Shown in pieces: positions 4,587 through 39,487 of a stretch of DNA of 64,000 nucleotides. Location: IMG/VR virus record IMGVR_UViG_3300032401_001514, positions 1 through 64,000 of that record; one strand, 5' to 3'. The translations under genes were made by a program, and so were the position numbers. This stretch comes from a virus. A model generated the notes under the pieces. That model was not told the origin of the DNA, searched no databases, and was given only the letters and a program-made list of their open reading frames with translations. The first letter of the stretch is position 1. Each line of letters begins with the position of its first letter.

Positions 4587-4587
4587 G

Positions 4588-20816: not shown

Positions 20817-20823
20817 TTTTATT

Positions 20824-23685: not shown

Positions 23686-24178
23686 ATTTTTTATTCCTTA
23701 GTTCATGAAAATCATGAGTAAATTCATCAATCATGACATTGTTTACTTTTTTTGGCGTTTCAACAAAGTTGTCTATCATTCTTTGTATTGCTTCTATCGG
23801 CACACCGTGAACATTAACTTTGTGGCATTCTTTAGCGGAACACCCAACAATTGAATGAACTGCAACATTGTAGCCAGAATCAGTGGCAAATTTTATATAC
23901 CATTGAAACTCTCTAAGTTTTATATTAGTGTTATCTACTATAACCAAAGCTTCGCCACTAGCTAGCGCTTCTTTGAAGTTTTCGCGGCATTTATCATGTG
24001 CCGCTCCTAGTAATTTTGGATTGAATTTGTAATTTATTGGATTGTGAGGTTTATCGAAATAAAAGAAATGATCAGCGCTGCAAATAACCGCAGGCATACC
24101 ATACTCCGCCTCTAAATATAGAGTTAAAGTTGTTTTCCCCGATCCCGGTACGCCACGCATGATAATTACTTGTTTCAT
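23588..24178 (-). CDS. P-loop nucleotide/polynucleotide kinase-like protein
   Basis: The start is taken as the ATG at 24178 (MKQVIIMRGVPGSGKTT); an ATG at 24199 is possible. Walker A is GVPGSGKT at about residues 9-16. Then come ICSADHFF (Walker B-like Asp), a helical lid and VIVDNTNIK. This is the AAA_33/polynucleotide-kinase-like arrangement shared with T4 Pnk and eukaryotic N4BP2. It could phosphorylate 5' RNA ends and so work with the RNA ligase and 2H protein, but the substrate is not shown. No phosphatase domain is fused. Confidence 0.78.
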   Translation of the reverse strand: MKQVIIMRGVPGSGKTTLTLYLEAEYGMPAVICSADHFFYFDKPHNPINYKFNPKLLGAAHDKCRENFKEALASGEALVIVDNTNIKLREFQWYIKFATDSGYNVAVHSIVGCSAKECHKVNVHGVPIEAIQRMIDNFVETPKKVNNVMIDEFTHDFHELRNKKYEPDKKNTKESKSILTIKRAMGASEKTAGSPN

Positions 24179-24182
24179 TGTA

Positions 24183-24560
24183 TTACCCGAAAATTTCATT
24201 GTTTTCAATTCTCTCTTTTAAATCTTCTATTATAAAAGAGGCTGCTTTCCAGTCATGTTCGTTAGGAGTGTCTTTATTTACAGAATCAAAAACCCAGTCC
24301 CACATACTGGTATCTAAAAAGAAATCAGAATATGTAGGATGAAACGCTTCTGGGTAAATATTGACCTGATAATCTTTTAATGCCATTAGCTCAGATATAA
24401 ATTTGGAAAATTCCTTATTTTTATAAGCATCTATTATATTAGTAATATAATCGGCTATTTTAGTTCTATCTTCCATTGAAGACTCTCTAAAATCGGACCC
24501 TTCCATTGCGTGATCTGTTAATAGTTCTGCGGCCTGTTTAAATAAACTCTCTATGCTCAT
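24183..24560 (-). CDS. Hypothetical 125-aa acidic protein
   Basis: The protein is helical and acidic, with aromatic clusters (YPEAFHPTYSDFFLDTSMWDW). It starts 5 nt after the exonuclease stop and ends 4 nt before the kinase start, so it belongs to the same operon. No motif, signal or membrane segment is visible. Function unknown. Confidence 0.68.
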   Translation of the reverse strand: MSIESLFKQAAELLTDHAMEGSDFRESSMEDRTKIADYITNIIDAYKNKEFSKFISELMALKDYQVNIYPEAFHPTYSDFFLDTSMWDWVFDSVNKDTPNEHDWKAASFIIEDLKERIENNEIFG

Positions 24561-24565
24561 GTTTG

Positions 24566-25153
24566 TTATTCCAAAATATGAGGGCTTCTTTTAATATGTG
24601 GAAGATGGTCCACGCCATCGTCCATTAACTTCTTCCAGAGTATATAGGCGTTCTGAGTATCGACAAGTGCGTTATGTTCTCCGAACTTAGCTTTTGCGTT
24701 CACTATTTCCAATGAAGCTCTTAGATTAAGTTTCGGATTGGCTATTCCATGTTTTATAGTATAGCTTCTGGTAAATTCCTTAGTGCATAGCCACAAATGA
24801 GCTGGAAACGTTTTATTAACCGATTGCCACAAGGCGTGAACAAACCTTTTATCGAATGAAGCGTTGTGCGCAATCATACAGCGATGCTCTGGCGTTTGTC
24901 CATCCTCTTCTATAAATTTTTCGCAAAACTCAACTACTGCCAGTCTACTTTCACCTTTAAATAAATCGGCTTTGGTTCTGTTTGTAATTTGAAGAGCTTG
25001 TGCAGAGGCTCGTTCTGGATGTTCGGCTTTTATGTATTTATCTAGCTGGTGTCTATCAGAACATCTAACTAATGAAATCTGCGTAACTTCATGTTGTTTT
25101 GAATCTAGGCCGGTAGTTTCCGTATCTAGTGCGTAGTAGATTATATTTGACAT
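24566..25153 (-). CDS. DnaQ-like (DEDDh) 3'-5' exonuclease
   Basis: The 195-aa protein has the three exonuclease motifs: Exo I ALDTETTGLD (about 8-17), Exo II AHNASFDKRF (about 95-104) and Exo III HNALVDTQNA (about 160-169), giving the D-E-D-D-H set. Such proteins proofread or trim DNA or RNA. No polymerase is fused. It opens a short operon, with a TCGAG element about 29 nt upstream. A second DnaQ-like exonuclease lies at 34474; the two are only distantly similar. Confidence 0.88.
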   Translation of the reverse strand: MSNIIYYALDTETTGLDSKQHEVTQISLVRCSDRHQLDKYIKAEHPERASAQALQITNRTKADLFKGESRLAVVEFCEKFIEEDGQTPEHRCMIAHNASFDKRFVHALWQSVNKTFPAHLWLCTKEFTRSYTIKHGIANPKLNLRASLEIVNAKAKFGEHNALVDTQNAYILWKKLMDDGVDHLPHIKRSPHILE

Positions 25154-25181
25154 ACATATTTATGTGCAAATCTTTGCTCTG

Positions 25182-25186
25182 CTCGA
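25182..25186 (-). promoter_or_regulatory. TCGAG element upstream of exonuclease gene
   Basis: On the minus strand TCGAGCAGAGC lies just after the stop of the 25189 gene and about 29 nt before the exonuclease start codon. It recurs in the same position in other gene borders. Role unknown. Confidence 0.3.
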
Positions 25187-25188
25187 CC

Positions 25189-25509
25189 TTAAAAATTCTT
25201 GATTAATTTAATCATATTAGTGCCATATTTGTATACCTTAGCACTAATTTTTTTCATTCCATTAACTTTTGTTAATGGCGGATTAAGCATCGCAGATTTA
25301 TCGATTAATTCAACAGCTTCTTCTGGACTTTCAGCCAATACTTTATATTTCAAAGTGCTTTTAGTCCAGGCCTCTACTTCTATAGTATAAAATTGTTTTT
25401 CTGCTTTTTTTATAACTTTAGGTTTTTTGTCTTCCGCAGACTTTTGTCTTTCTGGAAAATTATAAGCATAACGTTTTTTAGCGTCATTTTTATCATCATC
25501 TTTTGCCAT
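25189..25509 (-). CDS. Hypothetical 106-aa protein with charged N-terminus
   Basis: A Lys/Asp-rich disordered N-terminus (about 1-38) precedes a compact domain with FYTIEVEAWTKSTLKYKVLA and PEEAVELIDK. This is a small alpha-beta layout common in phage proteins of unknown role. It is divergent from the CCA-enzyme gene with about 47 nt between starts, so both promoters must sit there or upstream. No family is recognised. Confidence 0.65.
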   Translation of the reverse strand: MAKDDDKNDAKKRYAYNFPERQKSAEDKKPKVIKKAEKQFYTIEVEAWTKSTLKYKVLAESPEEAVELIDKSAMLNPPLTKVNGMKKISAKVYKYGTNMIKLIKNF

Positions 25510-25556
25510 ATTTATGTATATAACATATGATTATACATGTTGCCCACAGGACAAAG

Positions 25557-27206
25557 ATGTTGCGAAGCTTAGCCAGATGTGCCAGAATGGTTGTTTTCAG
25601 AAAGGTTGCGGTAGAGCTTATGCAAATCAACAAGTCGCCAACAGAAAACAGGATATTTGATCTGTTATTAGCTGTTGTTAAAGATAAAGCTCCCGATACT
25701 GTATTAAGAGTTGCCGGAGGCTTTGTGCGTGATCGTTTACTTGGCAAAGAATCTCATGATATAGACATTTCCATAAATAACATGAGTGGTGAGCAATTTG
25801 CCAATCTAGTTAAAAATTATATGGACGAACATGGTATTCATACAAAAGGAGTGTCTGTAGTAAAAGCAAATCCGGACCAAAGCAAACATTTAGCTACCGC
25901 AATGATAAATATATTTGGTCTTTCTATAGATTTTGTTAATCTGAGGAAAGAAACATATTCAGAATCCAGAATTCCAACTATTGAACCAGGAACTCCGGAA
26001 GAAGATGCTAGGCGCAGAGATTTAACTATCAATTCTATATTTTATAATATCAATGATGATAAAATAGAAGATTTTGTTGGTGGTATAGAAGATTTAAAAA
26101 ATGGAATAATTAGAACTCCCATAGATCCTATACAAACATTTATTGATGATCCTTTACGTATTTTACGAACAATTAGATTTGCTTCGAAATTTGGATTTAA
26201 TGTTGCTCCTGAAATATTAGAAGCGGCAAATAATAAAGATGTACAAGATGCTTTCAGATCGAAAGTAAGTGCTGAACGTGTGTGGAAAGAACTTGCCGGT
26301 CAAGCAGAACCTGAAGGATGGAAATCAGGATTTTTGACTGGTCCAAATCCACACGAGGCAGCCAAGCTATTAGGTCAGATGGGCCTAAGAGATATATTAT
26401 TTGGATTAAATGAGGAAGAGCAAAAGCAGCTTGGTTTGTCAAAAGGAATGGTGTCATTTGATACCGAACAACATAATCCTCATCATGATTTAAATGTCTG
26501 GGAACATACTTTAAAAGTATTGGAATTTTTAGTAAAAAAACAGACTACCGAAGAACAAAAAAATAAAGCGGAAGATTATCTTGTAAGAAACATTTCCGCT
26601 CTATTACATGATATTGGCAAATGTGATATTTGCGCTATACAAATGTACTCTACAGATCATCCGGAATATAAAGCGCGTATTGAAAAGCTTAAAGAAAAAT
26701 ACGGACTAACTCATGAGGGAGAGCTTCGTGCTTTTGAAGGCCATGCCGAATCTTCTGCTAAAATGGCAGAATATGTTTTAGACAGAATGAAAGCTCCAAA
26801 AAATATTAGCAAGAGAGTAATACGTCTTGTTAAAGAACATATGCGCCCTCATGGCATGACTAATATATCTGATGCAGGATTACGAAAGTTTATAAAAGAT
26901 CTTGAAGATGACTGGAGACATTCATTAGAATTGGCTATAGCAGATGCTTATGGCAAGAACACACACGAGCCACAAACAAGAGATAAATATGATACTATAA
27001 TTAAACGTATCGATGAAATAATATCTCAAATGGGCGGAACGAAAGTAAAGCCTCCAATTACCGGAAATGACTTAATGCAATTAGGTTTTAAGCCAGGTCC
27101 GACAATGGGTAAGATTTTACACGCTTTACAAGAAAAACTACTTGAGACGCCAAATATGAGCAAAGAAGAAGCCATTGAATTTATTAAAAATTTAAATATT
27201 CAATAA
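25557..27206 (+). CDS. cca: CCA-adding tRNA nucleotidyltransferase with HD domain
   Basis: The start is taken as ATG 25557, which follows AGGACAAAG. The 549-aa protein has VAGGFVRDRLLGKESHDIDI (class II signature with the DxD metal site), RRRDLTINSIFYN and DDPLRILRTIRFASKFGF, then a helical body. A C-terminal HD-type region has ALLHDIGKCD. The enzyme adds or repairs CCA ends. This matters here because nearly all phage tRNA genes lack an encoded CCA. It is the only long plus-strand gene inside a 47-kb minus-strand region, which may mean separate control or later acquisition. Confidence 0.93.
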   Translation: MLRSLARCARMVVFRKVAVELMQINKSPTENRIFDLLLAVVKDKAPDTVLRVAGGFVRDRLLGKESHDIDISINNMSGEQFANLVKNYMDEHGIHTKGVSVVKANPDQSKHLATAMINIFGLSIDFVNLRKETYSESRIPTIEPGTPEEDARRRDLTINSIFYNINDDKIEDFVGGIEDLKNGIIRTPIDPIQTFIDDPLRILRTIRFASKFGFNVAPEILEAANNKDVQDAFRSKVSAERVWKELAGQAEPEGWKSGFLTGPNPHEAAKLLGQMGLRDILFGLNEEEQKQLGLSKGMVSFDTEQHNPHHDLNVWEHTLKVLEFLVKKQTTEEQKNKAEDYLVRNISALLHDIGKCDICAIQMYSTDHPEYKARIEKLKEKYGLTHEGELRAFEGHAESSAKMAEYVLDRMKAPKNISKRVIRLVKEHMRPHGMTNISDAGLRKFIKDLEDDWRHSLELAIADAYGKNTHEPQTRDKYDTIIKRIDEIISQMGGTKVKPPITGNDLMQLGFKPGPTMGKILHALQEKLLETPNMSKEEAIEFIKNLNIQ

Positions 27207-27209
27207 TGA

Positions 27210-28076
27210 TTAAAGGTCATTTTTCCATATGCTTTCACCAGCTATAGTTGATCTGTAAGAAATCCACCCTCGGTGATTTCCTGACCATAAAGATCCTTGC
27301 TTATTATAAACAAGCTTGCTTTTTGGATTTGTAATTGGATATGCCACATGTTCAAAAGGGCTCATATGTCCATTCTTAAGCAGATCTTCACATAGATTGA
27401 TATCTGCTTCAGGATCGCGCTTGCCATCGTGTGTTAAGTAGCTTACGCGACAGCAACGACCTACGGAAATTCTGGCTAGTCCCTCTTGTCCATATTTATT
27501 TATTAAAGCCTCAAGTTCCGCGCCTTCCTCAAATATTAAAGGTAAATGCCATTGTTCGGCAGATAATTTTTGAGGCTGTGATGCGTCATAAGCTTCTGCC
27601 ATCATTGTGGCTATACGCTGAATTTCAGGTTGTGCGTTTTTATTACAGCGCAAACCTCGCCAATTATCCCATTCGGTAGATGTTACGATAACTGTTTGCC
27701 ATAACCAAGGTTCTAAAATTCTATTGGTTATTTGTTTATGCAACCCTAAAGATAAAAGTTTTTCGGCATGAGAAACGGCGCTATCTCTTGCGTACAACCA
27801 TTCAGATTTAGCATTTTCTATTTCATCAATAGATAGTTCTGTTTCAGCCTGCATTCCTTTTTGTTTTTTGCCCCAATGAATAGGAATAAAAGGATCTGTT
27901 TTAACACGCTCAAGCATTTTCTCAACTGGGATAGCTCGGCTACTTGCTGAATTCCTAGAGAATACCCTATGTGTATTAAATTCGGCTAGAACAATTCTTG
28001 GAAAAGTTATTTCAAAGCTAGTTATTCGAATGCCAGTAGGCGATTCAGAGTCTTTTAATATTTTACAAGAATACAT
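27210..28076 (-). CDS. thyX: Flavin-dependent thymidylate synthase ThyX
   Basis: The 288-aa protein carries the ThyX region EFNTHRVFSRNSASSRAIP (the family motif RHRxxSxNxxSxR with the first Arg as Thr), WDNWRGLRCN, RISVGRCCRVSYL and HMSPFEHVA. It makes dTMP from dUMP with FAD and methylene-tetrahydrofolate. It converges with the CCA gene with a 3-nt gap. The first-Arg change occurs in the loop that binds nucleotide and flavin and may affect activity. It pairs functionally with the ribonucleotide reductase at 49181. Confidence 0.9.
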   Translation of the reverse strand: MYSCKILKDSESPTGIRITSFEITFPRIVLAEFNTHRVFSRNSASSRAIPVEKMLERVKTDPFIPIHWGKKQKGMQAETELSIDEIENAKSEWLYARDSAVSHAEKLLSLGLHKQITNRILEPWLWQTVIVTSTEWDNWRGLRCNKNAQPEIQRIATMMAEAYDASQPQKLSAEQWHLPLIFEEGAELEALINKYGQEGLARISVGRCCRVSYLTHDGKRDPEADINLCEDLLKNGHMSPFEHVAYPITNPKSKLVYNKQGSLWSGNHRGWISYRSTIAGESIWKNDL

Positions 28077-28185
28077 TTTTTATCTTCTTAGTTAAATCAA
28101 AAAATTTTTTCCATACTATCAACACAATTAAAATAGGATATAATCTCCACCAGTCGCCAGGTTCATATTTGTTATTTTTTGTCAT
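28063..28185 (-). CDS. Small 40-aa membrane protein
   Basis: A short frame begins at the ATG at 28185 (MTKNNKYEPGDWWRLYPI) with TTTGGAAA upstream. The product has one hydrophobic segment (LYPILIVLIVW) between a polar N-terminus and a basic tail (KKFFDLTKKIKN). It ends 14 nt inside the ThyX gene. A single-span membrane peptide is likely. Function unknown. Confidence 0.5.
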   Translation of the reverse strand: MTKNNKYEPGDWWRLYPILIVLIVWKKFFDLTKKIKNVFL

Positions 28186-28203
28186 TTAATTTCCAAATTT
28201 ATG

Positions 28204-29268
28204 TTATTTTAATAAAACGCTATGAGGTTTACTTTCAATAAGACCGGCATTACTTATTGAAACGAATTCCGGATCTTCCCTAAGCTCCTCTAGAGAAGTA
28301 CAATTTTGATAAGACATGCCACTTTTCAAGCCCTGCATTAATTTCACAATAACATTAGTTACTGGACCTCGATACGGAACAAGTGCAGAAACTCCTTCTA
28401 TATGATCTTGTTTATGAGTTGAGCTTCCTACATACTCTTTATATAACTTGTCATCCAAGCCCTTTATAACATGTCCTGGTGCCTCATCAGTACCAGCTAA
28501 CAGATTGCCAAGCATTACAGCATCAGAAAAACATAATGCTTTGACTATATCTCCCGCTTTATTAATTCCTCCATCAGCTATGATTTTGAACTTTCTATTA
28601 GGTCCATCATTTCTTAAATAACCCTCTGTTCCCCGAAGCAAATCTTGCTGTTGTGGAGCAAGTGAATATTCGTAAACATCGCTCAATGCAGTTAATTGAG
28701 GAACGCCGTTACCGGTTTCAAGTCTGGTAGTACATAAACTTCCAGGGCCAATTCCTACCTTAATTACATTTGCTCCGGCATTATAAAGAGTTCTGGCCCC
28801 AGCTTTTGTTGCGACATTCCCGGATATTAATAAAACTTCAGGATATTTTTTAGCAATGTATTCTGTTGTTTGAGCGCAACCTTTAGAATCGCCATGAGCT
28901 ACATCTACACAAATTACTTTCGGAGGATCCTTTAAATTCATAAAAACATCAATGACTTCTACATTATTGATGCCAAAAGAAACGCCGATTTTATCAAAAG
29001 CATATGACGCTTTATGATAATCATTTATATATTCTTGAATAGAATCATAAAACCTATGTAAAATAGGCAGCCCGCCTAAAGTGCTTAGTTTTTTAGCCAT
29101 GGTTAATTCTGTAACATTTTTCATGTTAGCAGAAACAATAGGTATTTCTAATGTAATTCCTTTACCAAGATCTACAGAAGTATTAACATCTTTTCTGTTT
29201 TTAATCTCACTATATTTTGGAACTAACAAAACATCATCAAATGTATAACCAATTCTGGGGTGCAACAT
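28204..29268 (-). CDS. IMP dehydrogenase / GMP reductase family enzyme
   Basis: The 354-aa (beta-alpha)8 barrel has FDDVLLVPKYSEI at the start, the catalytic loop KVGIGPGSLCTTR with the active-site Cys, and IIADGGINKAGDI plus DAVMLGNLLAG for phosphate binding. CBS domains are absent. The late EGVSALVPYRGPV segment is closer to IMP dehydrogenase than to GMP reductase, so oxidation of IMP to XMP with NAD is favoured, though not certain. It would support guanine nucleotide supply. The leader carries a terminator-like hairpin and, further up, a TCGAG element. Confidence 0.85.
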   Translation of the reverse strand: MLHPRIGYTFDDVLLVPKYSEIKNRKDVNTSVDLGKGITLEIPIVSANMKNVTELTMAKKLSTLGGLPILHRFYDSIQEYINDYHKASYAFDKIGVSFGINNVEVIDVFMNLKDPPKVICVDVAHGDSKGCAQTTEYIAKKYPEVLLISGNVATKAGARTLYNAGANVIKVGIGPGSLCTTRLETGNGVPQLTALSDVYEYSLAPQQQDLLRGTEGYLRNDGPNRKFKIIADGGINKAGDIVKALCFSDAVMLGNLLAGTDEAPGHVIKGLDDKLYKEYVGSSTHKQDHIEGVSALVPYRGPVTNVIVKLMQGLKSGMSYQNCTSLEELREDPEFVSISNAGLIESKPHSVLLK

Positions 29269-29288
29269 ATTTTATCTCCAAATGAAAA

Positions 29289-29323
29289 AAACTATCAACA
29301 ATTAAGTTGATAGTTTTTTTTTG
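29289..29323 (-). terminator. Bidirectional terminator-like hairpin
   Basis: AAACTATCAAC and GTTGATAGTTT form an 11-bp stem with a 6-nt loop, flanked by A and T runs on both sides. It lies between the LAGLIDADG gene and the IMPDH-like gene. It could end the upstream transcript or act as a hairpin in the IMPDH leader. Confidence 0.8.
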
Positions 29324-29325
29324 CG

Positions 29326-29330
29326 CTCGA
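29326..29330 (-). promoter_or_regulatory. TCGAG element upstream of IMPDH-like gene
   Basis: On the minus strand TCGAGCGC lies just past the stop of the LAGLIDADG gene and before the terminator-like hairpin, about 58 nt from the IMPDH start. Role unknown. Confidence 0.3.
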
Positions 29331-29345
29331 CTACAAAAGTATTTA

Positions 29346-30332
29346 TTATTTCCATTTATATGATAAACTTGGTACTGGACAAGAGCCAATTATTTCATAA
29401 AATTGATTTGTTTGAGATTGTGGAACTCTTATTCTCCAACCAGTACCAGAGCTACAAGGCGTTGTTTTTATATCAATATTAAATTTTTTATTTATTTTTT
29501 CACAAAACATTTCTTGATTATCTCTTGTGAAAGATTCTGAACAAATTGTAATTATTATTTGTTTAGTTTTTGATTTTTTTCTTCTATGAAAAGATGTTCC
29601 ATCATCCATAAACATATTTAACAAAAGCTCTGAACTTATTTCTATGTCTTCTGGTATTACTTTTTTATAATTGGATTTTTCAGGATACCATTTGTTATAA
29701 AGTGGTAATAATGTTTTGTGTGTAAGAGATGAAATATGAAAATATTGATATTTTTCGTTTTTAGGATTTATATAGTGTGTTATTCGTGATTCTGGGTTTT
29801 TTAAAAAAATATTATTTGCCACATATAGAATATGATCATAATAAATATTTTTTTTATGAAAATAAGGAATTGATATATTACTTTTATTATTCCATATATC
29901 TAAAGATCCGTCTCCTAATAAAGATCCATTAATAACTGGTAAATTTAAAATAAAATTATCATCTTTTCTATTTATTGTTTGGCCATCACTTTTATTTCTA
30001 ATATTAATATTATGTCTAACCAAAAATTGTCTAGTAGAATTACATGATTTTGCACCAATTAAATTAGCAATTTGTTGGGTTGATAATTTATTATCAATAT
30101 AATTATTTTTCAACCATAATGGATCATTTAATAAAGAATATTTAGATTGTTTTTTCGGCGCTAATAAACAGGCTTCTGATGCAGAACGAATCTTAATATC
30201 AAATTTTTTTAAACAATATCCTACTGCTCTAATACTGCATCCAATAATTTTAGCAATTTCCGTAGTTGATTTTTTCTCTTTTGAATATGCATTATCAAGC
30301 CATATTGGGTCTGCCAATTGCGGGTACTTCAT
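29346..30332 (-). CDS. LAGLIDADG homing endonuclease
   Basis: The 328-aa protein has two N-terminal helix-turn-helix-like repeats (WLDNAYSKEKKSTTEIAKII and WLKNNYIDNKLSTQQIANLI) for DNA contact. The two LAGLIDADG helices follow: INGSLLGDGSL (about 133-143) and LLNMFMDDGTS (about 235-245), each ending in the catalytic acidic residue. It is free-standing, not an intein or in-frame insertion, and lies between the PARP and IMPDH-like genes. Both neighbours look intact. Confidence 0.88.
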   Translation of the reverse strand: MKYPQLADPIWLDNAYSKEKKSTTEIAKIIGCSIRAVGYCLKKFDIKIRSASEACLLAPKKQSKYSLLNDPLWLKNNYIDNKLSTQQIANLIGAKSCNSTRQFLVRHNINIRNKSDGQTINRKDDNFILNLPVINGSLLGDGSLDIWNNKSNISIPYFHKKNIYYDHILYVANNIFLKNPESRITHYINPKNEKYQYFHISSLTHKTLLPLYNKWYPEKSNYKKVIPEDIEISSELLLNMFMDDGTSFHRRKKSKTKQIIITICSESFTRDNQEMFCEKINKKFNIDIKTTPCSSGTGWRIRVPQSQTNQFYEIIGSCPVPSLSYKWK

Positions 30333-30357
30333 ACCACAATTGGCAAATATTGATATA

Positions 30358-31911
30358 TTATCCAGAAATTTCTAATAAATATTTAATATGAGATTGGCAG
30401 TCCTGTGGCTTAAAATCATAAGTAATCATTTCATCATTACGAACTCCAGAATGAGAAGCTTTACCATAAACAGAATGATATCCTTTAGGAGCACCTTTGA
30501 AAAATTGTGGATGTGAAGCTTTATACATGTTTCCAAAAGACACATCTAACAAGAACATAAATCTTGAACTAGGAGCATTTCCGCCAGTCCAGTAACCACC
30601 GTCAGTATAATTTAATGATTTAGTAGAGTTCCAAGCGAAGTATTTGCCATCACCAAACATTGAGCCTGTATGAACTGCCCCAGATGGACGAATCATAAGA
30701 CCACGTTTTGTAATACCTATAACGTTAGCACTTCGCGTGCCATGCCAGCAAAGCCAAGTATTAGCTTCATTGTAAAGCTTGCAAAGCTCTGGGCTTAAAT
30801 CTGGACGTTTCTTGGGCTCCCATTGATGGGCGCCCTTAGTGATATCTCCTGCTTCCTTTGCGAAAGAATGCTTACCGCATTCTTTAGCAATTGCCGATGT
30901 ATTTTCAAGGAAATAACTTTCTTCCTTATCTTTACGTTTTACTCCCCAAATATTCTTTATTCTAATGGCTTTTGGTCCTGAGAAAGAATATCCATGACCC
31001 CTTACAGCAGAATTCGAAAAGTAATCAACTAAGAAGTTGAATATTGGGTCAGAATGCTCTACGAACTTAAAGTCCGCATTGAGCGTAGTATATTGATCAT
31101 CCACTGAGGAATCAGCTTTTAGTACCGCCCCAATGCTCTTAGCATCTAGTAGAGTATCAAGATCATCTTCTTTCTTGATAATCTTATCAAGATCATCTAA
31201 AAGAAGTTCAGTCATTTGGCCACGAGCGCCTTGGCCAAGATTATGCGGAATGAGCCTATAGAATTCATTAGTTAGATCAGTAACTAACGATTCATCTTTC
31301 TTAGGCAGAGCAACGGACATTTTGCCGTTCTGTCCGGCCCCGGCAGAAACAAGAATTTTTCTTGCTTCATTTAGCGCATCTCGTCCTTTATCAATTTGGG
31401 CATTAGTAAGTTGTCCGAGCGGACATTTTAGAGTTTGAATAACGAACTGATTTGTAGCGCCCATAAGGTCGCCAATAAGCCGTTGCGTTTCAGAGTGCAG
31501 CGAGCTTTTCTTTTTGCTAGGATCCAGTAAGCCATCAGCATTTTTCAACTGAACAGCTTTCGTGATCTTCTTAGCTTCTTCGGAACCATGAGCACGCTGG
31601 GCTACGTCAACTTCTCCGTAACCCTTCTTCTTCTTAGACTTGATAAGGGCTTCGAATTCATGTTCGGCCGCGCTGAGGTCAGGGTAGTAGCGCCATTCGT
31701 TTGTTTGGTGCCCGCCAGTCGGCCCCCACATCGTAAAAATCTGAGTCTTGGAACCACTCTTTGGCTTATGAAGCTCGATATGGTAAGACTTGTTCGATGT
31801 TCCTTGGGTATTCGCTTTGCCACCAGTAAGGTCGAAGAAGGCAAGCTCCAGCACCCTCTCTACAGTGTACGAACCTTCCTTTAGAATAGGGGACTTCTGA
31901 ACTTTTTCCAT
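30358..31911 (-). CDS. Poly(ADP-ribose) polymerase with WGR, regulatory and catalytic domains
   Basis: The 517-aa protein has the layout of eukaryotic DNA-dependent PARPs. A WGR-like domain spans about 40-105 (MWGPTGG, EWRYYPDLSAAEHEFEALI). A helical regulatory domain spans about 140-265 (IGDLMGATNQFVIQTLKCPL). The C-terminal catalytic domain has CWHGTRSANVIGITKRGL (His390), FGDGKYFAWNSTKSLNYT (Tyr424) and RNDEMITYDF (Glu494). The H-Y-E triad needed for chain elongation is complete. The Arg of the WGR signature is Pro here. It should use NAD to modify protein or nucleic acid, perhaps on sensing DNA ends. Context: NAD synthesis and ADP-ribosylglycohydrolase genes lie nearby. Confidence 0.95.
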   Translation of the reverse strand: MEKVQKSPILKEGSYTVERVLELAFFDLTGGKANTQGTSNKSYHIELHKPKSGSKTQIFTMWGPTGGHQTNEWRYYPDLSAAEHEFEALIKSKKKKGYGEVDVAQRAHGSEEAKKITKAVQLKNADGLLDPSKKKSSLHSETQRLIGDLMGATNQFVIQTLKCPLGQLTNAQIDKGRDALNEARKILVSAGAGQNGKMSVALPKKDESLVTDLTNEFYRLIPHNLGQGARGQMTELLLDDLDKIIKKEDDLDTLLDAKSIGAVLKADSSVDDQYTTLNADFKFVEHSDPIFNFLVDYFSNSAVRGHGYSFSGPKAIRIKNIWGVKRKDKEESYFLENTSAIAKECGKHSFAKEAGDITKGAHQWEPKKRPDLSPELCKLYNEANTWLCWHGTRSANVIGITKRGLMIRPSGAVHTGSMFGDGKYFAWNSTKSLNYTDGGYWTGGNAPSSRFMFLLDVSFGNMYKASHPQFFKGAPKGYHSVYGKASHSGVRNDEMITYDFKPQDCQSHIKYLLEISG

Positions 31912-31921
31912 TTGATTACTT

Positions 31922-32164
31922 TCAGGATGGAGAATCGTTATAGATGTACAACATGTCTTTTAGCTTAAAAACATTTTTGCAAAGATTGCATTCTAAATCT
32001 TGCCGCTCTTTAGTTGAGAGGGGGATGCGGCAGGAGGGGCAGAGAGCATATATGTAGCCACCATCCGTTAAATTGTCAAGAGCTACTTGCAACTCTTCTA
32101 CGGATTCGGAAATTTGTTCAGATAAAAAATTATCGTCAGGTTTTATAAAAATAGTTTGCTTCAT
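31922..32164 (-). CDS. Small zinc-ribbon protein
   Basis: The start is placed at the ATG at 32164 (MKQTIFIKPDDNF). The 80-aa protein has an acidic helical N-terminus and a C-terminal CPSCRIPL...CNLC zinc ribbon. It lies just upstream of the PARP gene with a 10-nt gap, so they probably share a transcript. A TCGAG element lies about 29 nt before its start. A DNA-, RNA- or protein-binding role is possible. Confidence 0.72.
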   Translation of the reverse strand: MKQTIFIKPDDNFLSEQISESVEELQVALDNLTDGGYIYALCPSCRIPLSTKERQDLECNLCKNVFKLKDMLYIYNDSPS

Positions 32165-32192
32165 AAAAAATATTACTTCGAAGCAAAAGCAT

Positions 32193-32197
32193 CTCGA
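32193..32197 (-). promoter_or_regulatory. TCGAG element upstream of zinc-ribbon/PARP genes
   Basis: On the minus strand TCGAGATGC lies about 29 nt before the zinc-ribbon start codon, in a true intergenic gap. If it is a promoter or processing site, it would control the PARP transcript. Role unknown. Confidence 0.3.
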
Positions 32198-32220
32198 CAA
32201 TCATATTGAATTAATAATTA

Positions 32221-32397
32221 TTATGATAATAATTTTTCTGTTCCAATTATTCTTTGAATAAAATAAATTTCTACAGTATCATCATCTTTAAATCTTGCTT
32301 CAAGTGTTCCTTGCGCCTCATTTGGCAAGCTGTTTGAAGCATGTTGTATTAAAATTTCAAGTATGTCTTTTTCCGTAAATTTTTTAACCAATATCAT
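32221..32397 (-). CDS. Hypothetical 58-aa protein
   Basis: A short frame begins at the ATG at 32397 (MILVKKFTEKDILEILI). The product has a helix (residues 8-21), a loop and two strands (TLEARFKDDDTVEIYFIQRI), a compact small fold common among phage proteins. A TCGAG element lies about 30 nt upstream, inside the 3' end of the preceding gene. Function unknown. Confidence 0.6.
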   Translation of the reverse strand: MILVKKFTEKDILEILIQHASNSLPNEAQGTLEARFKDDDTVEIYFIQRIIGTEKLLS

Positions 32398-32409
32398 TAA
32401 ATGATCAAA

Positions 32410-32736
32410 TTATCTATTAAGATGATCTCGACAAGTAATTTTAAACTTTCCTGTATCCCAAAGCTTAATAAATTTTGTTCCCATATGTGGCGCTTCTAAT
32501 ATTAATTTAATTCTCCAGTTTTTCATATTTGAAATTTTCTCAATAATAACCAAATTATTATGATCTATTTCAGATAATATAGATACTGAATTTGTTATTT
32601 CTATATGTTGTTCATCTGAAAATTTTAATAAAACTAAATTACTAGCAAATATCGGACGTATGATAACAACTGCTTCAAAGACAGAATAGCGCAATACTGC
32701 TATTAAGTCATCGTGTAATAAAAATAAACCGTTCAT
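32410..32736 (-). CDS. Hypothetical 108-aa beta-rich protein
   Basis: The sequence alternates hydrophobic strands (AVVIIRPIF, LVLLKFS, LVIIEKI, RIKLILEAP) and ends in a basic tail. It is likely a small beta-barrel or sandwich. No motif, signal peptide or membrane segment is clear. Its own upstream gap to the HAD gene is about 50 nt. Function unknown. Confidence 0.62.
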   Translation of the reverse strand: MNGLFLLHDDLIAVLRYSVFEAVVIIRPIFASNLVLLKFSDEQHIEITNSVSILSEIDHNNLVIIEKISNMKNWRIKLILEAPHMGTKFIKLWDTGKFKITCRDHLNR

Positions 32737-32789
32737 TTACGGAAGTGAATGTAATCACTTGAAATCAATTGTCAACCTCATAATGATTA

Positions 32790-33416
32790 TCAACCTTTTT
32801 GAATTCTTTCTTTTATCTTGTATAACGCATTTTTAATATCAGAAGGTCTTTTTAAAAGATCAAGGTCGAAATGAACGGCATCAAATTTTTGCTTAGCGGC
32901 GGCTATTATATTTTCTTTTCTGTCATCTAAAAAAACACATCCGGCAAAATCTTCATTGCTCAAAAGAAAACTTTGATAATATAACATTTGTGGTTTAGCC
33001 GAGCCGACTTCGAAACTAAAATGTTGGATACATTTATTTATTACTTCATTGCAATTAGATCGTATAAAATTTATGTGATCTAATCCCATGTTGCTTAGTA
33101 ATGCTACTTTTACGCCTTCGTCTTTTAGATTAGTAACGAAGTTCATCATTATATCATTCTCTGTTAAAGAATCATTCCATGCTTCCAAAATTTCTCCCCA
33201 ATGTTTTTTCATTTTTCCATTTGCAAATATTTCTGGAAATCGAACTCTGAGAGCTTGGCAAAGTGTTAACATACCCATATGACAACTATATTCTAAATCA
33301 TTAATAAACTCTGATATTTCCTCTTCAGTAAGACCATGGCTTTGCATTACATCGTAAAATTTATTAAAATTTACATGTATAAGAACGTTGCCTATATCAA
33401 AAGCTATATGTTGCAT
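32790..33416 (-). CDS. HAD-superfamily hydrolase
   Basis: The 208-aa protein begins AFDIGNVLIHVN (motif I with nucleophile Asp). A helical cap, motif II LLSNMG, the motif III Lys in SAKPQM, and motif IV CVFLDDRKENI follow. This is the HAD-IA layout of small-molecule phosphatases. The second acidic residue of DxD is Gly in DIGN, as in several natural HAD-IA proteins. It could act on a sugar phosphate, a nucleotide or a 3'-phosphate end. The start overlaps the glycosyltransferase-like gene upstream by 13 nt. Confidence 0.82.
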   Translation of the reverse strand: MQHIAFDIGNVLIHVNFNKFYDVMQSHGLTEEEISEFINDLEYSCHMGMLTLCQALRVRFPEIFANGKMKKHWGEILEAWNDSLTENDIMMNFVTNLKDEGVKVALLSNMGLDHINFIRSNCNEVINKCIQHFSFEVGSAKPQMLYYQSFLLSNEDFAGCVFLDDRKENIIAAAKQKFDAVHFDLDLLKRPSDIKNALYKIKERIQKG

Positions 33417-34477
33417 AAATTATTTATCTTATCGTGTAGGAGGAGATTTTTTTGTACGCTTAAATAATCTTTCTTTAATTTTTTAAAGAAAGATTTTTCT
33501 ATAGTTTCTGTTGCAAAATTTTGACTAAGTTCAACTTGAGCAACATCAACGCCTATGCCATAAATTTTACACAAAATAGCATTAAGTAATGTTTCTGAAT
33601 CCGTTAATGTTGGGGCTATACAAATATCTTTCAAATTATAAAAAGCGTCAGAAACATAGCTGGTTTCGCCAGTTGTAAATAACCATTTGGCATTAGTTAA
33701 TTTGTCTCGATATTTTAATTTATTATTAATGTTTTCAACGAAAAGATTATTGTATTGATCAGTAAATGGGCTAAACAAATTTATAGTAAATTTTGAATTA
33801 ATTGAATTTAATATTTTAGTTAACGCGGAGTAACGATTTGTATCATTAATAATAGCTATATTACTATTTGATAAAGTAATACCGACCGATCTTGATTTTA
33901 TTATTACTGTTGGTCCTTCTTCAACATCAATATGATATGGCTGAATCCATTCAAATCCATTTTTCAAATATGGTCTAAATTTTATGTCTCCAAAAGGAGA
34001 ATAAATAAAGGCGGCATCTGGCTCGGGCATAGATCTAAGCATATGTCGCAGGGATGTCAATCTAGAAATGTATCTAAGTTGTCCTTTTTCCCACTCTAAA
34101 CCATTTAATAAATGCAACGGGCTGTAGTACCATAATTTAATACCAAGTTTTTTAGCTATATGAGCGGTCGTAGGTTCTCCGTCCACTATAAATAATTCTG
34201 GTTCAAATTGCTCTATTTCTTGTAACAAAATACGAACGTTATTTATATTAACAAAAGGAACTCCACGATGACCAAATAACTTAAACATTTCTGCATTTGC
34301 TGTAGCTGGTTTATTATAATGTAGTGCGTCCAAAGTCCAGTCTATATGTGGTATAGAATCGCTTGACTTTAAATAAGCAGCTATTTTTATCTCATGTTTG
34401 GAGCCTGCGTGCTGAAGAAACCTTGATAGCTGGCTATTTGCGCCAACTCTATTACCTGCGCTATAGAGAATTCTCAT
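33404..34477 (-). CDS. Putative GT-B-fold glycosyltransferase
   Basis: The 357-aa protein begins RILYSAGNRVGANSQLSRFL, a typical N-terminal Rossmann strand and loop of GT-B enzymes. LFIVDGEPTTAHIAKKLGI fits a MurG/GT28-like half-domain. The C-terminal half contains WLFTTGETSYVSDAFY and SETLLNAILCKIYGIGV, where the sugar-nucleotide site would be. No clear family assignment is possible by eye. It is coupled to the exonuclease gene (4-nt overlap) and to the HAD gene. Virion or surface glycan modification is a possible role. Confidence 0.6.
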   Translation of the reverse strand: MRILYSAGNRVGANSQLSRFLQHAGSKHEIKIAAYLKSSDSIPHIDWTLDALHYNKPATANAEMFKLFGHRGVPFVNINNVRILLQEIEQFEPELFIVDGEPTTAHIAKKLGIKLWYYSPLHLLNGLEWEKGQLRYISRLTSLRHMLRSMPEPDAAFIYSPFGDIKFRPYLKNGFEWIQPYHIDVEEGPTVIIKSRSVGITLSNSNIAIINDTNRYSALTKILNSINSKFTINLFSPFTDQYNNLFVENINNKLKYRDKLTNAKWLFTTGETSYVSDAFYNLKDICIAPTLTDSETLLNAILCKIYGIGVDVAQVELSQNFATETIEKSFFKKLKKDYLSVQKNLLLHDKINNLCNI

Positions 34478-35115
34478 TCGTTATAACAATTTTTAAAAGC
34501 TTCAATAAGAACGGCTTTTAATGGCGCTAATTGTATTAACAAAAGATCTTTTGTCATAATAACATCTTCTTCCGCTCTGTGTGCCTTTCGTGATTTTACG
34601 CCAAAAGATTTTACTAAAGAGCCTAGATTATATCTTTCTCGTTTCTTACCAGTACATAGATCAATTAAAACAGCTATATCTTTTGTATCTAAAGTAAATT
34701 TGTTAGGGCCAGTCTGGAAAGGAAAGGTATCGTAAGCATTATGTCTTTTCCAAAGAGCTTCTAACATGTTATAATCGAACAATACGTTCTGTCCAACCAT
34801 CACCCTATCTGTTACTGCCATATTATCTTCCATAATCCAATTTTCTATATTTGGCAGAACTTTTTTTGGATGTATATAATTTTCTTTTCCAAACTTGGAT
34901 AGGTTTAAGATATCCTCACGTTTGTGCCCGCTAATTTTTAGAGCAGCGTCCTCTATTGTATCTGGCTTTACTGCTTGCAATAGCCATGTTTTAATTTCCT
35001 CTTTGCTATCTTTAATATCAAGGAAAAGCCTGCACATAGCTACTTCAATTACTTCGTTGTTATTTGGATCCAACCCAGTAGTTTCGGTATCAACAACATA
35101 GACGACATAGCCCAT
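34474..35115 (-). CDS. DnaQ-like (DEDDh) exonuclease, second copy
   Basis: The 213-aa protein has Exo I YVVDTETTGLDPNNN (about 6-20), Exo II VGQNVLFDYNML (about 105-116) and Exo III HRAEEDVIMTKDLL (about 180-193), so the D-E-D-D-H set appears complete. AAGGAGG precedes the ATG, a strong ribosome binding site. It differs clearly from the exonuclease at 24566. The likely role is nucleic-acid trimming or proofreading in trans. Confidence 0.86.
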   Translation of the reverse strand: MGYVVYVVDTETTGLDPNNNEVIEVAMCRLFLDIKDSKEEIKTWLLQAVKPDTIEDAALKISGHKREDILNLSKFGKENYIHPKKVLPNIENWIMEDNMAVTDRVMVGQNVLFDYNMLEALWKRHNAYDTFPFQTGPNKFTLDTKDIAVLIDLCTGKKRERYNLGSLVKSFGVKSRKAHRAEEDVIMTKDLLLIQLAPLKAVLIEAFKNCYNE

Positions 35116-35137
35116 TTAATAGCCTCCTTTAAGGTTA

Positions 35138-35326
35138 TTATTCAGATGGCTCGTCGTTTTTTCGCTCGACAGGTATCGACGCCGTAGTTGAAATCTTGGA
35201 AATATACTTACCTATAATATTAGCCATAGAAGCATCAATAGGAATCCAAACTTCCTTATTTATTTCATTTGACATAACAAGATAAGAATATCCGTTTTTA
35301 TCTTTTATACCTTCGTATTTAATCAT
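35138..35326 (-). CDS. Hypothetical 62-aa protein
   Basis: This small acidic protein has a strand-rich N-terminal half (YEGIKDKNGYSYLVMS, VWIPIDASMANII) and a charged tail. The start overlaps the upstream stop by 4 nt, so it is coupled to it. Its 3' end contains a TCGAG element that lies 50 nt before the exonuclease start. No family is recognised. Confidence 0.6.
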   Translation of the reverse strand: MIKYEGIKDKNGYSYLVMSNEINKEVWIPIDASMANIIGKYISKISTTASIPVERKNDEPSE

Positions 35327-35694
35327 TTTATTTTAATAGCAAGCAATGCTTTTTTAAATTTAACAACAGATTTGATATCAGATTTATAACTATCCATAAG
35401 AAACTTTACGCCATTAACAGTTCTGAGAAATTCACGTTGTGACTTAGAAAATCTAGTACCTTTTAATGTTAGAACAACTTTCTTGTCCTCTAATATTTCC
35501 CAATCTTCTCCGTTTCTTGGCAGCTTAATTCTTTTTATGTTTAAAACTTTTTGTTTAATATCATCTTCTTCTTTAAACAACTCGTGATCTGTTCTTAATA
35601 TATTAAGATTTAAATATTTAGAATTGTTAAAGTTTGTTTCTGAATTTGCTTCATTAACAGTATTGCTACCAGAAGTTATATTATATTTATTCAT
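35323..35694 (-). CDS. Hypothetical 123-aa protein
   Basis: An Asn/Ser-rich, probably disordered N-terminus (about 1-30) precedes a basic globular part with EDWEILEDKKVVLTLKGTRF and a C-terminal helix. The second half has a strand-helix pattern that could bind nucleic acid. It lies 8 nt after the FAD-protein stop, in the same operon. No family is recognised. Confidence 0.62.
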   Translation of the reverse strand: MNKYNITSGSNTVNEANSETNFNNSKYLNLNILRTDHELFKEEDDIKQKVLNIKRIKLPRNGEDWEILEDKKVVLTLKGTRFSKSQREFLRTVNGVKFLMDSYKSDIKSVVKFKKALLAIKIK

Positions 35695-35702
35695 GATAAT
35701 CC

Positions 35703-36914
35703 TTATTTACAAGCGCTATCCATTGCTATTGCGCCTGTAATTGCAGCAGCTGCTATTCCTTGTATTCCAGCACTTTCTCCTGCGATAAATAAATTTTCAA
35801 TCTCTGATTCTAAATTGGAGCCTAGTCTAACTTGAGATGCCATCGGCAGTATATCAGGTGAATGATAATATGCCTTTGTTGGCATTGATGGAATAATTTC
35901 TGTCAGTTCAGTTAAAACCGGAATTAACCAATTATATTCTGGCAATACAGATAATTGGCCAACGTTTTTTAAAATGCTTCTTACTTTTTCTCGGCCTATT
36001 CTATCGTTAAATAACAAGAATGCTAATTTCCCTAATCTATCAGTTTGTCTACAACCGTCATTTTGAAAATATTGTTTACTTAAAATTGAAAAAGAAACCT
36101 TGTCTGTTTTCCACCTGTCTTCATTAGAGCGAAATGATGATATTACTAAATCAGCATGGTCTTCTGGAATGACAGTTCCGTTCCAATTAAATGGGCCAAT
36201 CTCTAGATTATCCTTTTTTAATTTGCAATGAGTTTTATTAAAATCTTTCATTTGTTGAGCAGACAATTCAACTCTAATTCCATAAATTGCAAAATCGTCA
36301 TTTGCAAGAATTCCAAGTTCTTTATATAATTTATTTGTCCAACGCCATCCGCTTCTGCCAGCACACAATATAAGTTTTTTACAAGTATAATTTCCGTCAG
36401 CTGTAGTTACCAAAAACGTATCTTTTTGTTTAAATATTTTGAATACCTCATTATCAAACGAAAATGTAATATTGCCGGCAGTATCAATCACCTCTGTTAT
36501 TAACCTTGATAGCTGATGGACACTATCAGGTTTCCATTGGACGTAATTATTTAATTCAATTTCATAATTTAAAGAAGATAATTTCTTTTGAATAGCAGCG
36601 CTTGGAAGCTTGTCTTTAATAATCTTCATTGGGTTTACTTCTTCAAACCATTTTGTTACCCATTTGTTCGCAGGGTTTGCTTTCCTGCCATCTACTATAT
36701 CTAATACTTTATCGATATCGCCAGTGTATATTTTACCATCACCTGTGGGAAAACAGCCTAGAAACCCCTCTATTTGTCGTCTTCTTTTTGACGGAGGACG
36801 ACCTAATTCAAACAATATGACTTTTGAGTCTTTATGAATCTCTGCTGCTCTTAACGCTGCGAACGTACCAGAAATACCAGCTCCTATTATTCCGATATCA
36901 TAGTTTATTGTCAT
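35703..36914 (-). CDS. FAD-dependent oxidoreductase/dehydrogenase
   Basis: The start is placed at the ATG at 36914 (MTINYDIGIIGAGISG), which has GGAAA upstream. The 403-aa protein has the FAD-binding GxGxxG loop at about 9-14, a mid-protein KKLILCAGRSGWRW segment and a C-terminal NLFIAGESAGIQGIAAAAITG, the second FAD-contacting motif. This matches the COG2509/HI0933-like flavoprotein group, whose members include tRNA-modifying and uncharacterised dehydrogenases. The substrate is unknown. It is rare in phages and is followed upstream by an eroded homing endonuclease gene that overlaps its start by 4 nt. Confidence 0.78.
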   Translation of the reverse strand: MTINYDIGIIGAGISGTFAALRAAEIHKDSKVILFELGRPPSKRRRQIEGFLGCFPTGDGKIYTGDIDKVLDIVDGRKANPANKWVTKWFEEVNPMKIIKDKLPSAAIQKKLSSLNYEIELNNYVQWKPDSVHQLSRLITEVIDTAGNITFSFDNEVFKIFKQKDTFLVTTADGNYTCKKLILCAGRSGWRWTNKLYKELGILANDDFAIYGIRVELSAQQMKDFNKTHCKLKKDNLEIGPFNWNGTVIPEDHADLVISSFRSNEDRWKTDKVSFSILSKQYFQNDGCRQTDRLGKLAFLLFNDRIGREKVRSILKNVGQLSVLPEYNWLIPVLTELTEIIPSMPTKAYYHSPDILPMASQVRLGSNLESEIENLFIAGESAGIQGIAAAAITGAIAMDSACK

Positions 36915-37264
36915 ATATGTTTCCAACTTTCTTTATTAATAATTCGTCTGACTTGAGTTCTTCCAACTTTATATTCACGAGCCAGCTGAGTTTTTGTAAA
37001 TCCATTTTTGTATTTATTACGTATACTTATAACAACGTCTTCTGATATTTTTACTAATGGATTCTTTTCTCCAATAAATTTGCCTTTTCTGGCGGCGCAC
37101 CTTTCCTCACTTAATTTTCTACCCCTATGCAAATAAAATTTTTCGCGCTTTCTTTTACTTTGCGCTATGTTCTTATGCTTAATCCAGCGTTTTATCGGAT
37201 TTGCAGATTTACCAACGTAAATTTTATTATAAATTATATTGTGAATTATGTAAATTTGGTGCAT
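36911..37264 (-). CDS. GIY-YIG homing endonuclease, apparently shortened
   Basis: The N-terminus has the GIY-YIG pair (IYIIHNII, KIYVGKSANPIKRWIKHK, about 3-31). The C-terminus has a NUMOD/helix-turn-helix-like DNA-binding part (LVKISEDVVIS, FTKTQLAREYKVGRTQVRRI). The usual 30-50 residues between them, including the catalytic Glu and the W-I-x-x-Y region, are missing. At 117 aa it is well below the normal size, so it is probably an internal deletion product that can no longer cut. It overlaps genes on both sides. Confidence 0.72.
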   Translation of the reverse strand: MHQIYIIHNIIYNKIYVGKSANPIKRWIKHKNIAQSKRKREKFYLHRGRKLSEERCAARKGKFIGEKNPLVKISEDVVISIRNKYKNGFTKTQLAREYKVGRTQVRRIINKESWKHI

Positions 37265-37946
37265 ATATTATCTGTCTAGATGTTTGCAAAGACTCTAGTA
37301 CGTCTTTGTACAAACTATCCACGCTGAATATATCACCACTAATTATTTTATCAATAGTTTCACTTAGTTCTTTGTCAACACCAAACGGCCACATAAAATA
37401 ATAATTTGAATTTATAAAATGTTGATTGAAATTTTTAGCTGCTTTCTCTAGTGTTTCTTTGATTTTTTCTTCGCTATAATTTAATTCTTTCATCAACTCA
37501 GCATAAGTAAATAAAGACATTTGATATCCACGCACTTCATAAAGTTTTCGCCAATATGCAGGCATTGGAGATAAAAATACTACAAATAATAATAAAGAAA
37601 CTATAATATTTATTGGTAATAATAATAACATTAATATTGATAAGCTTTGTGGGAATAAATAAAAGAATGAAAATATAATTTGTCCTTGTCTTTCAGAATC
37701 GCTTGCATGCACAAATTCATGAGATAAAATATCTATGGCATCAAAATCTCTATCTTGTATAAACTTTCTATTTGGAAAATATACGGTCTTGCCAATGGTA
37801 GTTGTATAACTAGTCATAAATGTTTTATTATAAAACAAAAAATAACTTATTAACTTCATAAGCCAAGATTCATCTTTATATGCTATCTTGAGACCTGGAA
37901 GTTTTTTATTTAATTCTGCATAAAAATTATCGAATCTTGTTGTCAT
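37227..37946 (-). CDS. Membrane-associated zinc metallopeptidase-like protein
   Basis: The 239-aa protein has a zincin motif HEFVH at 76-80, within ILSHEFVHASD. Two or three hydrophobic segments follow (about 88-130), then a possible third ligand Glu in YEVRGYQMS (near 137). This order resembles small M48-like or phage metallopeptidases. No signal peptide is seen, so the active site could be cytoplasmic. Its last residues are overlapped for 38 nt by the GIY-YIG gene, whose insertion may have changed the C-terminus. Confidence 0.68.
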   Translation of the reverse strand: MTTRFDNFYAELNKKLPGLKIAYKDESWLMKLISYFLFYNKTFMTSYTTTIGKTVYFPNRKFIQDRDFDAIDILSHEFVHASDSERQGQIIFSFFYLFPQSLSILMLLLLPINIIVSLLLFVVFLSPMPAYWRKLYEVRGYQMSLFTYAELMKELNYSEEKIKETLEKAAKNFNQHFINSNYYFMWPFGVDKELSETIDKIISGDIFSVDSLYKDVLESLQTSRQIIYAPNLHNSQYNL

Positions 37947-38407
37947 ACTACACTTAATCCATTAATCCACTGCCAAGTAATAGGCCCTGATGGACGCATT
38001 ATAGCATTTGTTTTTGTTGCGTTAATAATAGCTTGTTTCATTTGTGGAGCAACACTGCTTTGCAACATTTTTAATATAGCCCCACTCTTTACAGCAGGGT
38101 GATTTCCAGATATATTAAATTGCACATTCAAATTTGGTAAAACAGATATGCCAATATTAACATTTCCTGCTTTATCTCCCATTGCAGCAAAGATGCTTTC
38201 TATTGTAGGATTATTTAATAATATTTGTTGAGCTTCAATATCTACGCCTGACAAATTCTTGTTGCCAGTAAATTTAGCAAACGTACCATAACCAGCTAAT
38301 AATTCTTGATACTCTCCAACACCTCCGCCAACAACAGTTGGAGGGCCTGCGTCTGCAAATGTTAGTAAATTGAACTTAGTTGCTGCTGATAATAATTTGT
38401 TATACAT
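37943..38407 (-). CDS. Hypothetical 154-aa protein, possibly structural
   Basis: The start is placed at the ATG at 38407 (MYNKLLSAATKFNLL). The sequence is low in charge and rich in Gly, Ala, Asn and Ile, with a Gly-rich stretch (VVGGGVGEYQELLAGYG) and a strand-rich centre. That would fit a virion or assembly protein. It is coupled to the zincin gene by a 4-nt overlap. No family is recognised. Confidence 0.6.
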   Translation of the reverse strand: MYNKLLSAATKFNLLTFADAGPPTVVGGGVGEYQELLAGYGTFAKFTGNKNLSGVDIEAQQILLNNPTIESIFAAMGDKAGNVNIGISVLPNLNVQFNISGNHPAVKSGAILKMLQSSVAPQMKQAIINATKTNAIMRPSGPITWQWINGLSVV

Positions 38408-38485
38408 GGCATAGATATATTGGTTTATTCGTTGTTCCACCAGAGGCGCGCTGTAACGTTTTGCGTGCTTCGTCTCCTAAGAGGC

Positions 38486-39024: not shown

Positions 39025-39040
39025 ATTATCCACCAAAACA

Positions 39041-39064
39041 AAAAACCCGCTGTTGGCGGGTTTT
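39041..39064 (-). terminator. Rho-independent terminator hairpin
   Basis: AAAACCCGC and GCGGGTTTT form a 9-bp stem with a 5-nt loop. On the minus strand it is followed by a T-rich run. It lies after the stop of the 39082 gene and before the deaminase gene. Confidence 0.85.
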
Positions 39065-39081
39065 AATTAAAAAGCCCTTAG

Positions 39082-39450: not shown

Positions 39451-39487
39451 GTTTTGCTCCTTTCCCGTATATATCAAGCTACTTATA

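Follow-up and report, generated by a model that had tools for sequence, protein, structure and literature searches.

The 64,000-nucleotide stretch of DNA analysed here (positions 1 to 64,000 of the IMG/VR virus record IMGVR_UViG_3300032401_001514; hereafter the window) encodes a phage PARP that keeps the autoinhibitory residues of its helical domain but has a proline in place of the WGR-domain arginine through which DNA-dependent PARPs are activated. Our best explanation, held with moderate confidence, is that this is an active, autoinhibited PARP with a rewired trigger, and that the phage brings its own putative eraser and an NAD salvage enzyme. Shown directly are the domains, fold, catalytic triad, acceptor and autoinhibition residues, the loss of the arginine, the linkage of a zinc-ribbon gene, and the presence of ADP-ribosylglycohydrolase (ARH) and nicotinate phosphoribosyltransferase (NAPRT) genes. 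Phage PARPs with all three domains were already known; the feature of interest here is the clade-specific loss of the WGR arginine together with the linked zinc-ribbon gene.

The PARP gene (30358–31911, minus strand) has an ATG start and encodes 517 amino acids. Pfam identified a WGR domain (aa 32–101, 3.9e-10, 40.1 bits against a cut-off of 22), a PARP regulatory helical domain (PARP_reg, aa 153–273, 3.6e-13, 50.2 bits against 26.8) and a PARP catalytic domain (aa 372–489, 4.7e-21, 75.6 bits against 26.7), which is the order of the ARTD1-3-type enzymes. The ART catalytic domain (30361–30798, minus strand) runs on from the Pfam match to the C terminus and contains His390, Tyr424 and Glu494. 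These residues align with the catalytic His, Tyr and Glu of PARP1 and PARP2 and are invariant across all aligned homologues. The acceptor-site residues are also kept, as K431 and Y435 correspond to PARP1 K903 and Y907, and H306, just N-terminal of the catalytic stretch, corresponds to PARP1 H826. An AlphaFold model built from a 49-sequence phage alignment (mean pLDDT 86.6, pTM 0.78) matched PARP1 residues 536–1007 on a DNA break over model residues 6–517 (4dqy_C; Z 27.8, rmsd 2.5, 387 residues, 29% identity), and it also aligned with PARP2 on bridged breaks (6x0l_P, Z 25.4). By sequence, human PARP1 and PARP2 are the nearest solved structures, and the profile of the phage PARP family, PHROG 23333, matched the protein with an E value of 3.9e-30. 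Pfam, triad alignment and fold agree in placing the protein in the PARP ART H-Y-E clade (PF00644). The initial annotation had read the three domains, their order as in DNA-dependent PARPs and the triad from the sequence, and had proposed HMM searches and structure prediction as a check; all of this was borne out, with the WGR and regulatory domains recovered and the triad aligning in the fold. A defence-system label for the protein was rejected, as PADLOC gave just an unconvincing match to WGR_XIII (E 0.0088, aa 79–146).

Codon divergence between PARP orthologues was highest at third positions (about 0.60–0.62, versus 0.24–0.27 at position 2), indicating that the gene is under purifying selection. 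Judged from its residues and model, the enzyme would be catalytically competent. Polymer synthesis is also conceivable, given that Glu494 and the acceptor-site residues are kept, but these features are necessary yet insufficient for it. The H-Y-E triad is present in PARP3 and PARP4, which make mostly mono-ADP-ribose. Thus the triad does not imply chain growth: the Glu that the initial annotation linked to this function is in place, whereas the function does not follow from it. The searches turned up no biochemical work on a phage WGR-HD-PARP, nor biochemical data on phage PARPs of any kind.

The source record is a 129,628-base IMG/VR virus contig whose tail-sheath and baseplate-wedge genes identify it as a contractile-tailed phage, in agreement with the phage origin first assigned. 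The contigs that bear orthologous loci range in length from 54 to 459 kb. Since relatives reach this size, the record is probably a fragment of a larger phage genome of the same type. Megablast of window positions 24000–40000 found no near-identical sequenced phage. The analysis also took in the half of the record that lies beyond the window. Other genes noted were 13 tRNA genes, a CCA-adding tRNA nucleotidyltransferase-like gene (25527–27206, plus strand), a gene for translation elongation factor Ts (4564–5223, plus strand; Pfam EF_TS 1.2e-24) and one for a Tubulin/FtsZ-family protein (57732–59135, minus strand; 2.1e-14), possibly a phage spindle or cytoskeletal protein. A second ADP-ribosyltransferase-like ORF (12668–13696, minus strand) has an HGT motif and is unlike the window PARP; its Pfam matches are weak (PARP 0.0012, Tpt1/KptA 0.0034).

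Rarity is not what makes the gene of interest, because phage PARPs are common and have been annotated and reported before. Motif-limited scanning recovered at least 49 phage PARP loci, on viral contigs of IMG/VR, and 30 bacterial PARP loci. Among the 49 phage proteins scanned, the PARP domain was found in all, WGR in 44 and PARP_reg in 33; the corresponding numbers for 27 bacterial proteins were 27, 27 and 12. Four IMG/VR relatives are 55–58% identical to the window PARP over its full length, and others are 37–44% identical. The GenBank note for a Klebsiella phage FBKp34 protein (QQV91759.1) already names the WGR, regulatory and catalytic domains, and annotated PARPs are also found in Xanthomonas phage XacN1 (BBA65562.1) and Cellulophaga phages phi4:1 and phi17:2 (PHROG 23333). 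A PARP-like phage protein was reported from Aeh1 in 2005 (PMC1266365), with further reports in 2014 (PMC4245714) and 2021–22 (PMC7824862, PMC9503650). The view that a full-length PARP is exceptional in a phage was thus not upheld. The same is true of the description of the protein as eukaryote-like, if taken as a statement about origin. Two trees, one with 81 proteins and one with 42, had human PARP1 and PARP2 as the outgroup and sole two eukaryotic sequences. Phage and bacterial PARPs interleave in both, and the phage label requires 9 and 7 changes, respectively. Several bacterial PARPs are at least as close to PARP1 as the window PARP, which shares 29.5% identity with this human enzyme. Recent transfer from a eukaryote to a phage is therefore not supported, within the limits of the two eukaryotic sequences included.

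The window also encodes enzymes that could remove ADP-ribose and replenish NAD+. The candidate eraser is a gene of the ARH/DraG family (19806–20864, minus strand, with a likely ATG start at 20816; Pfam ADP_ribosyl_GH 1.9e-45). Its PF03747 domain keeps the metal motifs WTDDT and GGDTDT (TDD, GDTD), and its PDB matches are MJ1187, ARH3 and DraG. Directly upstream and in the same operon is a gene for NAPRT, an enzyme of NAD salvage (20824–22332, minus strand; NCBIfam NF006695 7.3e-154, above the cut-off; PDB 2f7f 2.2e-90). PF17767 detected this NAPRT while PF04095 missed it, such that NAPRT counts based on PF04095 are lower bounds. Directly downstream of the ARH gene is an ORF with a long run of YGHSxSG-type repeats (18691–19803, minus strand), and beyond it a NadE-like gene (17981–18700, minus strand). 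The best PDB match of the latter is NAD synthetase 1xng (1.7e-4; Pfam NAD_synthase 0.034), and its usual SGG nucleotide loop looks degenerate; a relative (30%) sits after the ARH gene in phage G039, and a search of solved structures with this homologue gave no match.

Neither a macrodomain eraser nor bacterial-type PARG (PF10021) was found in this phage record; PARG is present in 2 of the 40 phage records searched. Macro genes occur in clade members G001, G003, G004 and G040 and an ARH gene in G005, and the 113-kb contig of G002 has neither. Across PARP-phage contigs, 16 of 38 have a macro gene and 9 of 38 have ARH. Divergent macrodomain genes that look TARG1-like were also seen in sister phages (L116, L117, L118), where their neighbours resemble window positions 17284–17943. 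On the basis of co-occurrence, it is plausible that the window ARH removes the mark made by the window PARP.

Other uses are known for the ARH and macro genes of large phages, and these genes may act against host defences. The PARP, ARH and NAPRT could be unrelated passengers in a large accessory genome, with ARH and NAPRT countering NAD+-depleting or ADP-ribose-signalling defences independently of the PARP. This reading is compatible with any view of the PARP itself, and we consider it a real possibility, if on the unlikely side. Phage NAD salvage, ARG and macro genes have been reported as counter-defence (PMC9503650, PMC7824862), and sister phage G042, in which a PARP was not detected, also has a macro gene. 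A PARP-minus control set of sister phages came to 4 contigs, too few and too fragmentary for judging whether erasers go with PARPs; the search for this set with the IMPDH protein returned only one locus, and that with the FAD oxidoreductase 10. The PARP and ARH genes are 9.5 kb apart in the window. PARP and ARH lay within 8 kb of one another in 5 of 11 genomes, compared with 1.1 expected (P 0.0023, with related phages counted separately), but collapsing one related group made the result non-significant (P = 0.25). Against the passenger reading, the two genes are 3–7.5 kb apart in G009, G013, G016 and LR756511. Moreover, in G039 a window-type PARP, IMPDH, a second PARP, NAPRT and ARH lie in one block on a single strand; this ARH is 48% identical to that of the window even though the NAPRT belongs to another subfamily. 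The two full-length PARPs of the G039 contig (L111 8170–9576, L110) are different from one another. One is of the arginine-less window type, and the other has the WGR arginine but a Thr at the site of PARP1 K903.

The WGR domain of the window PARP (aa 32–101; 31609–31818, minus strand) reads W-G-P at its name-giving motif. The residue equivalent to R591, R140 and R103 of the DNA-dependent PARP1, PARP2 and PARP3 is Pro64 (codon 31720–31722, minus strand). R591A, R140A and R103A abolish the DNA-dependent activity of PARP1, PARP2 and PARP3, respectively, whereas DNA-independent activity was unaffected in PARP2 R140A and PARP3 R103A (PMC4081085). Pro or Ala occupies this site in all 8 members of the window's clade (the window, L003, L004, L005, L006, L060, L109 and L110), which has support of 95/93. 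In contrast, the arginine is kept in each of the 74 phage and bacterial PARPs examined from outside the clade (73 in the alignment plus L108, the second PARP of phage G039), as it is in PARP1 and PARP2.

The helical autoinhibitory domain (aa 153–273; 31093–31455, minus strand) gave a different picture. PARP1 D766 and D770 in this domain block NAD+ (PMC5829251), and L251, D252, L254 and D256 of the window PARP correspond to PARP1 L765, D766, L768 and D770. D256 is present in 8 of 8 members of the window's clade versus 14 of the 73 others in the alignment. Because the autoinhibitory residues are kept while the usual release relay, the WGR arginine, is gone, a different trigger is suggested. From these residue patterns, the trigger of the PARPs in this clade is probably rewired.

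The initial annotation had taken the architecture to be that of a DNA-break sensor and asked whether it senses host genome decay, packaging ends or defence cuts. As stated, this is not supported in a clade in which the arginine is replaced throughout. An ordinary break-activated PARP, whose WGR domain binds DNA ends (from cutting of the host genome, from packaging or from defence) and switches the enzyme on by a PARP2-like route with another residue taking the place of the arginine, is in our view rather unlikely. R74 is kept in 8 of 8 clade members and could be a stand-in for the lost arginine, in which case ordinary DNA activation would be possible. N40, the aromatic W62 and Y98 (PARP2 Y188) are also retained, the fold matches DNA-bound PARP1 and PARP2, and the architecture is that of Herpetosiphon and C. 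difficile PARPs that are active with activated DNA (PMC5966428). However, the Pro or Ala found in the whole clade lies at the very site where mutation eliminates the DNA-dependent activity of PARP1, 2 and 3.

The genes around the PARP are conserved in the clade as a block comprising an FAD oxidoreductase, small genes, a DEDDh exonuclease, a glycosyltransferase-like gene, a HAD hydrolase, a zinc-ribbon gene, the PARP and an IMPDH-family gene. In the window, the IMPDH/GMP reductase-family gene, a conserved downstream neighbour of the PARP by synteny, is at 28204–29268 (minus strand; Pfam IMPDH 5.7e-84). A free-standing LAGLIDADG homing endonuclease gene is inserted directly 3′ of the PARP (29346–30332, minus strand; Pfam 1.6e-20), and L003 has a LAGLIDADG gene at the same site (L003:7545–8345, 47% identity).

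This setting bears on whether the protein is a host-takeover ADP-ribosyltransferase like T4 Alt/ModA, which would modify host proteins (factors of transcription or translation, for example) and whose WGR domain would be a generic nucleic-acid tether that senses no damage. Such a role has been proposed for jumbo-phage ARTs and PARPs (PMC7824862) and for viral ARTs (PMC9503650), and it is consistent with a PARP that has no working break-sensing arginine. We nevertheless think it unlikely. Retention of the helical autoinhibitory domain implies regulation. The neighbours of the PARP form a nucleotide-metabolism block that includes IMPDH, ThyX and exonuclease genes, and as none of the adjoining genes was identified as a virion gene, there is no hint that the protein is packaged in the head.

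The zinc-ribbon gene (31922–32164, minus strand; 80 aa from an inner ATG) was recognized by its CxxC-x13-CxxC motif, conserved position and model, in which pLDDT exceeds 90 over the ribbon. Its stop codon is about 10 nt ahead of the PARP start. A zinc-ribbon gene is likewise found 3–18 nt upstream of the PARP in L003–L006, making five phages with the window, and 1.6 kb upstream in L099. The two CxxC pairs of these genes are spaced about 13–15 residues apart, and one other among the 134 small ORFs of the window has a CxxC-CxxC motif. Its linkage makes the zinc-ribbon protein a candidate partner of the PARP. No zinc-ribbon gene was found beside the PARP at L060, L109, L061 or L062, which in the case of L060 and L109 is a point against this reading. 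A stronger version, which we regard as quite unlikely, is a split two-gene PARP, in which the zinc-ribbon protein replaces in trans the PARP1 relay of zinc fingers and WGR arginine and the phage runs a closed ADP-ribose cycle of NAPRT, PARP and ARH, with something else than a bare DNA end as the signal. If true, the zinc-ribbon protein would gate the autoinhibited PARP. Finally, a PARP that has degenerated and lost its activity, or whose gene is in decay beside the homing endonuclease, would fit the lost arginine and the adjoining LAGLIDADG gene but is very improbable, as the 517-aa frame is intact, the catalytic and acceptor residues are all kept, and third positions show an excess of divergence from the 55–58% identical orthologues.

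We return to an active, autoinhibited PARP with a rewired trigger, for which we infer the activity, chain length, autoinhibition, rewiring, target, role of the zinc-ribbon protein and action of ARH on the PARP product. In this model the phage PARP would attach ADP-ribose, probably as short chains, to itself and/or to nucleic-acid-bound proteins in the infected cell. The folded helical domain would hold the enzyme off, and unlike in PARP1-3, its release would no longer be coupled to DNA-end binding via the WGR arginine. The release signal could be nucleic acid sensed via further residues of the WGR domain, or else a partner protein, for instance the zinc-ribbon product of the upstream gene. The phage ARH would then take the mark off, as a macrodomain protein would in sister phages, and the spent NAD+ would be replaced in part through the phage NAPRT. 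A clade that lacks the arginine and keeps the autoinhibitory domain offers a direct test of whether the allosteric relay is replaceable and what can stand in for it. With an eraser and an NAD salvage gene encoded alongside, one can also ask whether infecting phages use ADP-ribosylation as a reversible mark.

The window PARP has the C-terminal WGR-HD-ART order, fold and H-Y-E triad in common with human PARP1, PARP2 and PARP3 (ARTD1-3), and it keeps the equivalents of PARP1 H826/K903/Y907 and D766/D770/L765/L768. In contrast to the human enzymes, it has Pro for the WGR arginine, its chain contains neither Zn1-3 nor BRCT, and the long loop inserted ahead of the catalytic Glu is missing. Its WGR-PARP_reg-PARP architecture is identical to that of Herpetosiphon HaPARP and C. 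difficile CD160 CdPARP, which are DNA-dependent and PAR-forming, and the WGR arginine of CdPARP (R59) shows some of the strongest coevolution within that WGR domain (PMC5966428). This arginine is lost in the window's clade, and the PARG that partners the bacterial enzymes is absent from the phage record. FBKp34, XacN1, phi4:1 and phi17:2 resemble the window in that their PARPs are phage-encoded, whereas the PARPs of FBKp34 and XacN1 keep the WGR arginine and belong to another branch, with 29–31% identity to the window PARP. Unlike DraT/DraG, the window genes are separated by 9.5 kb rather than adjacent, and a PARP takes the place of the DraT-type ART as transferase. As in DraT/DraG-like and PARP/ARH writer-eraser pairs, however, a transferase and an ADP-ribosylglycohydrolase are encoded in one genome.
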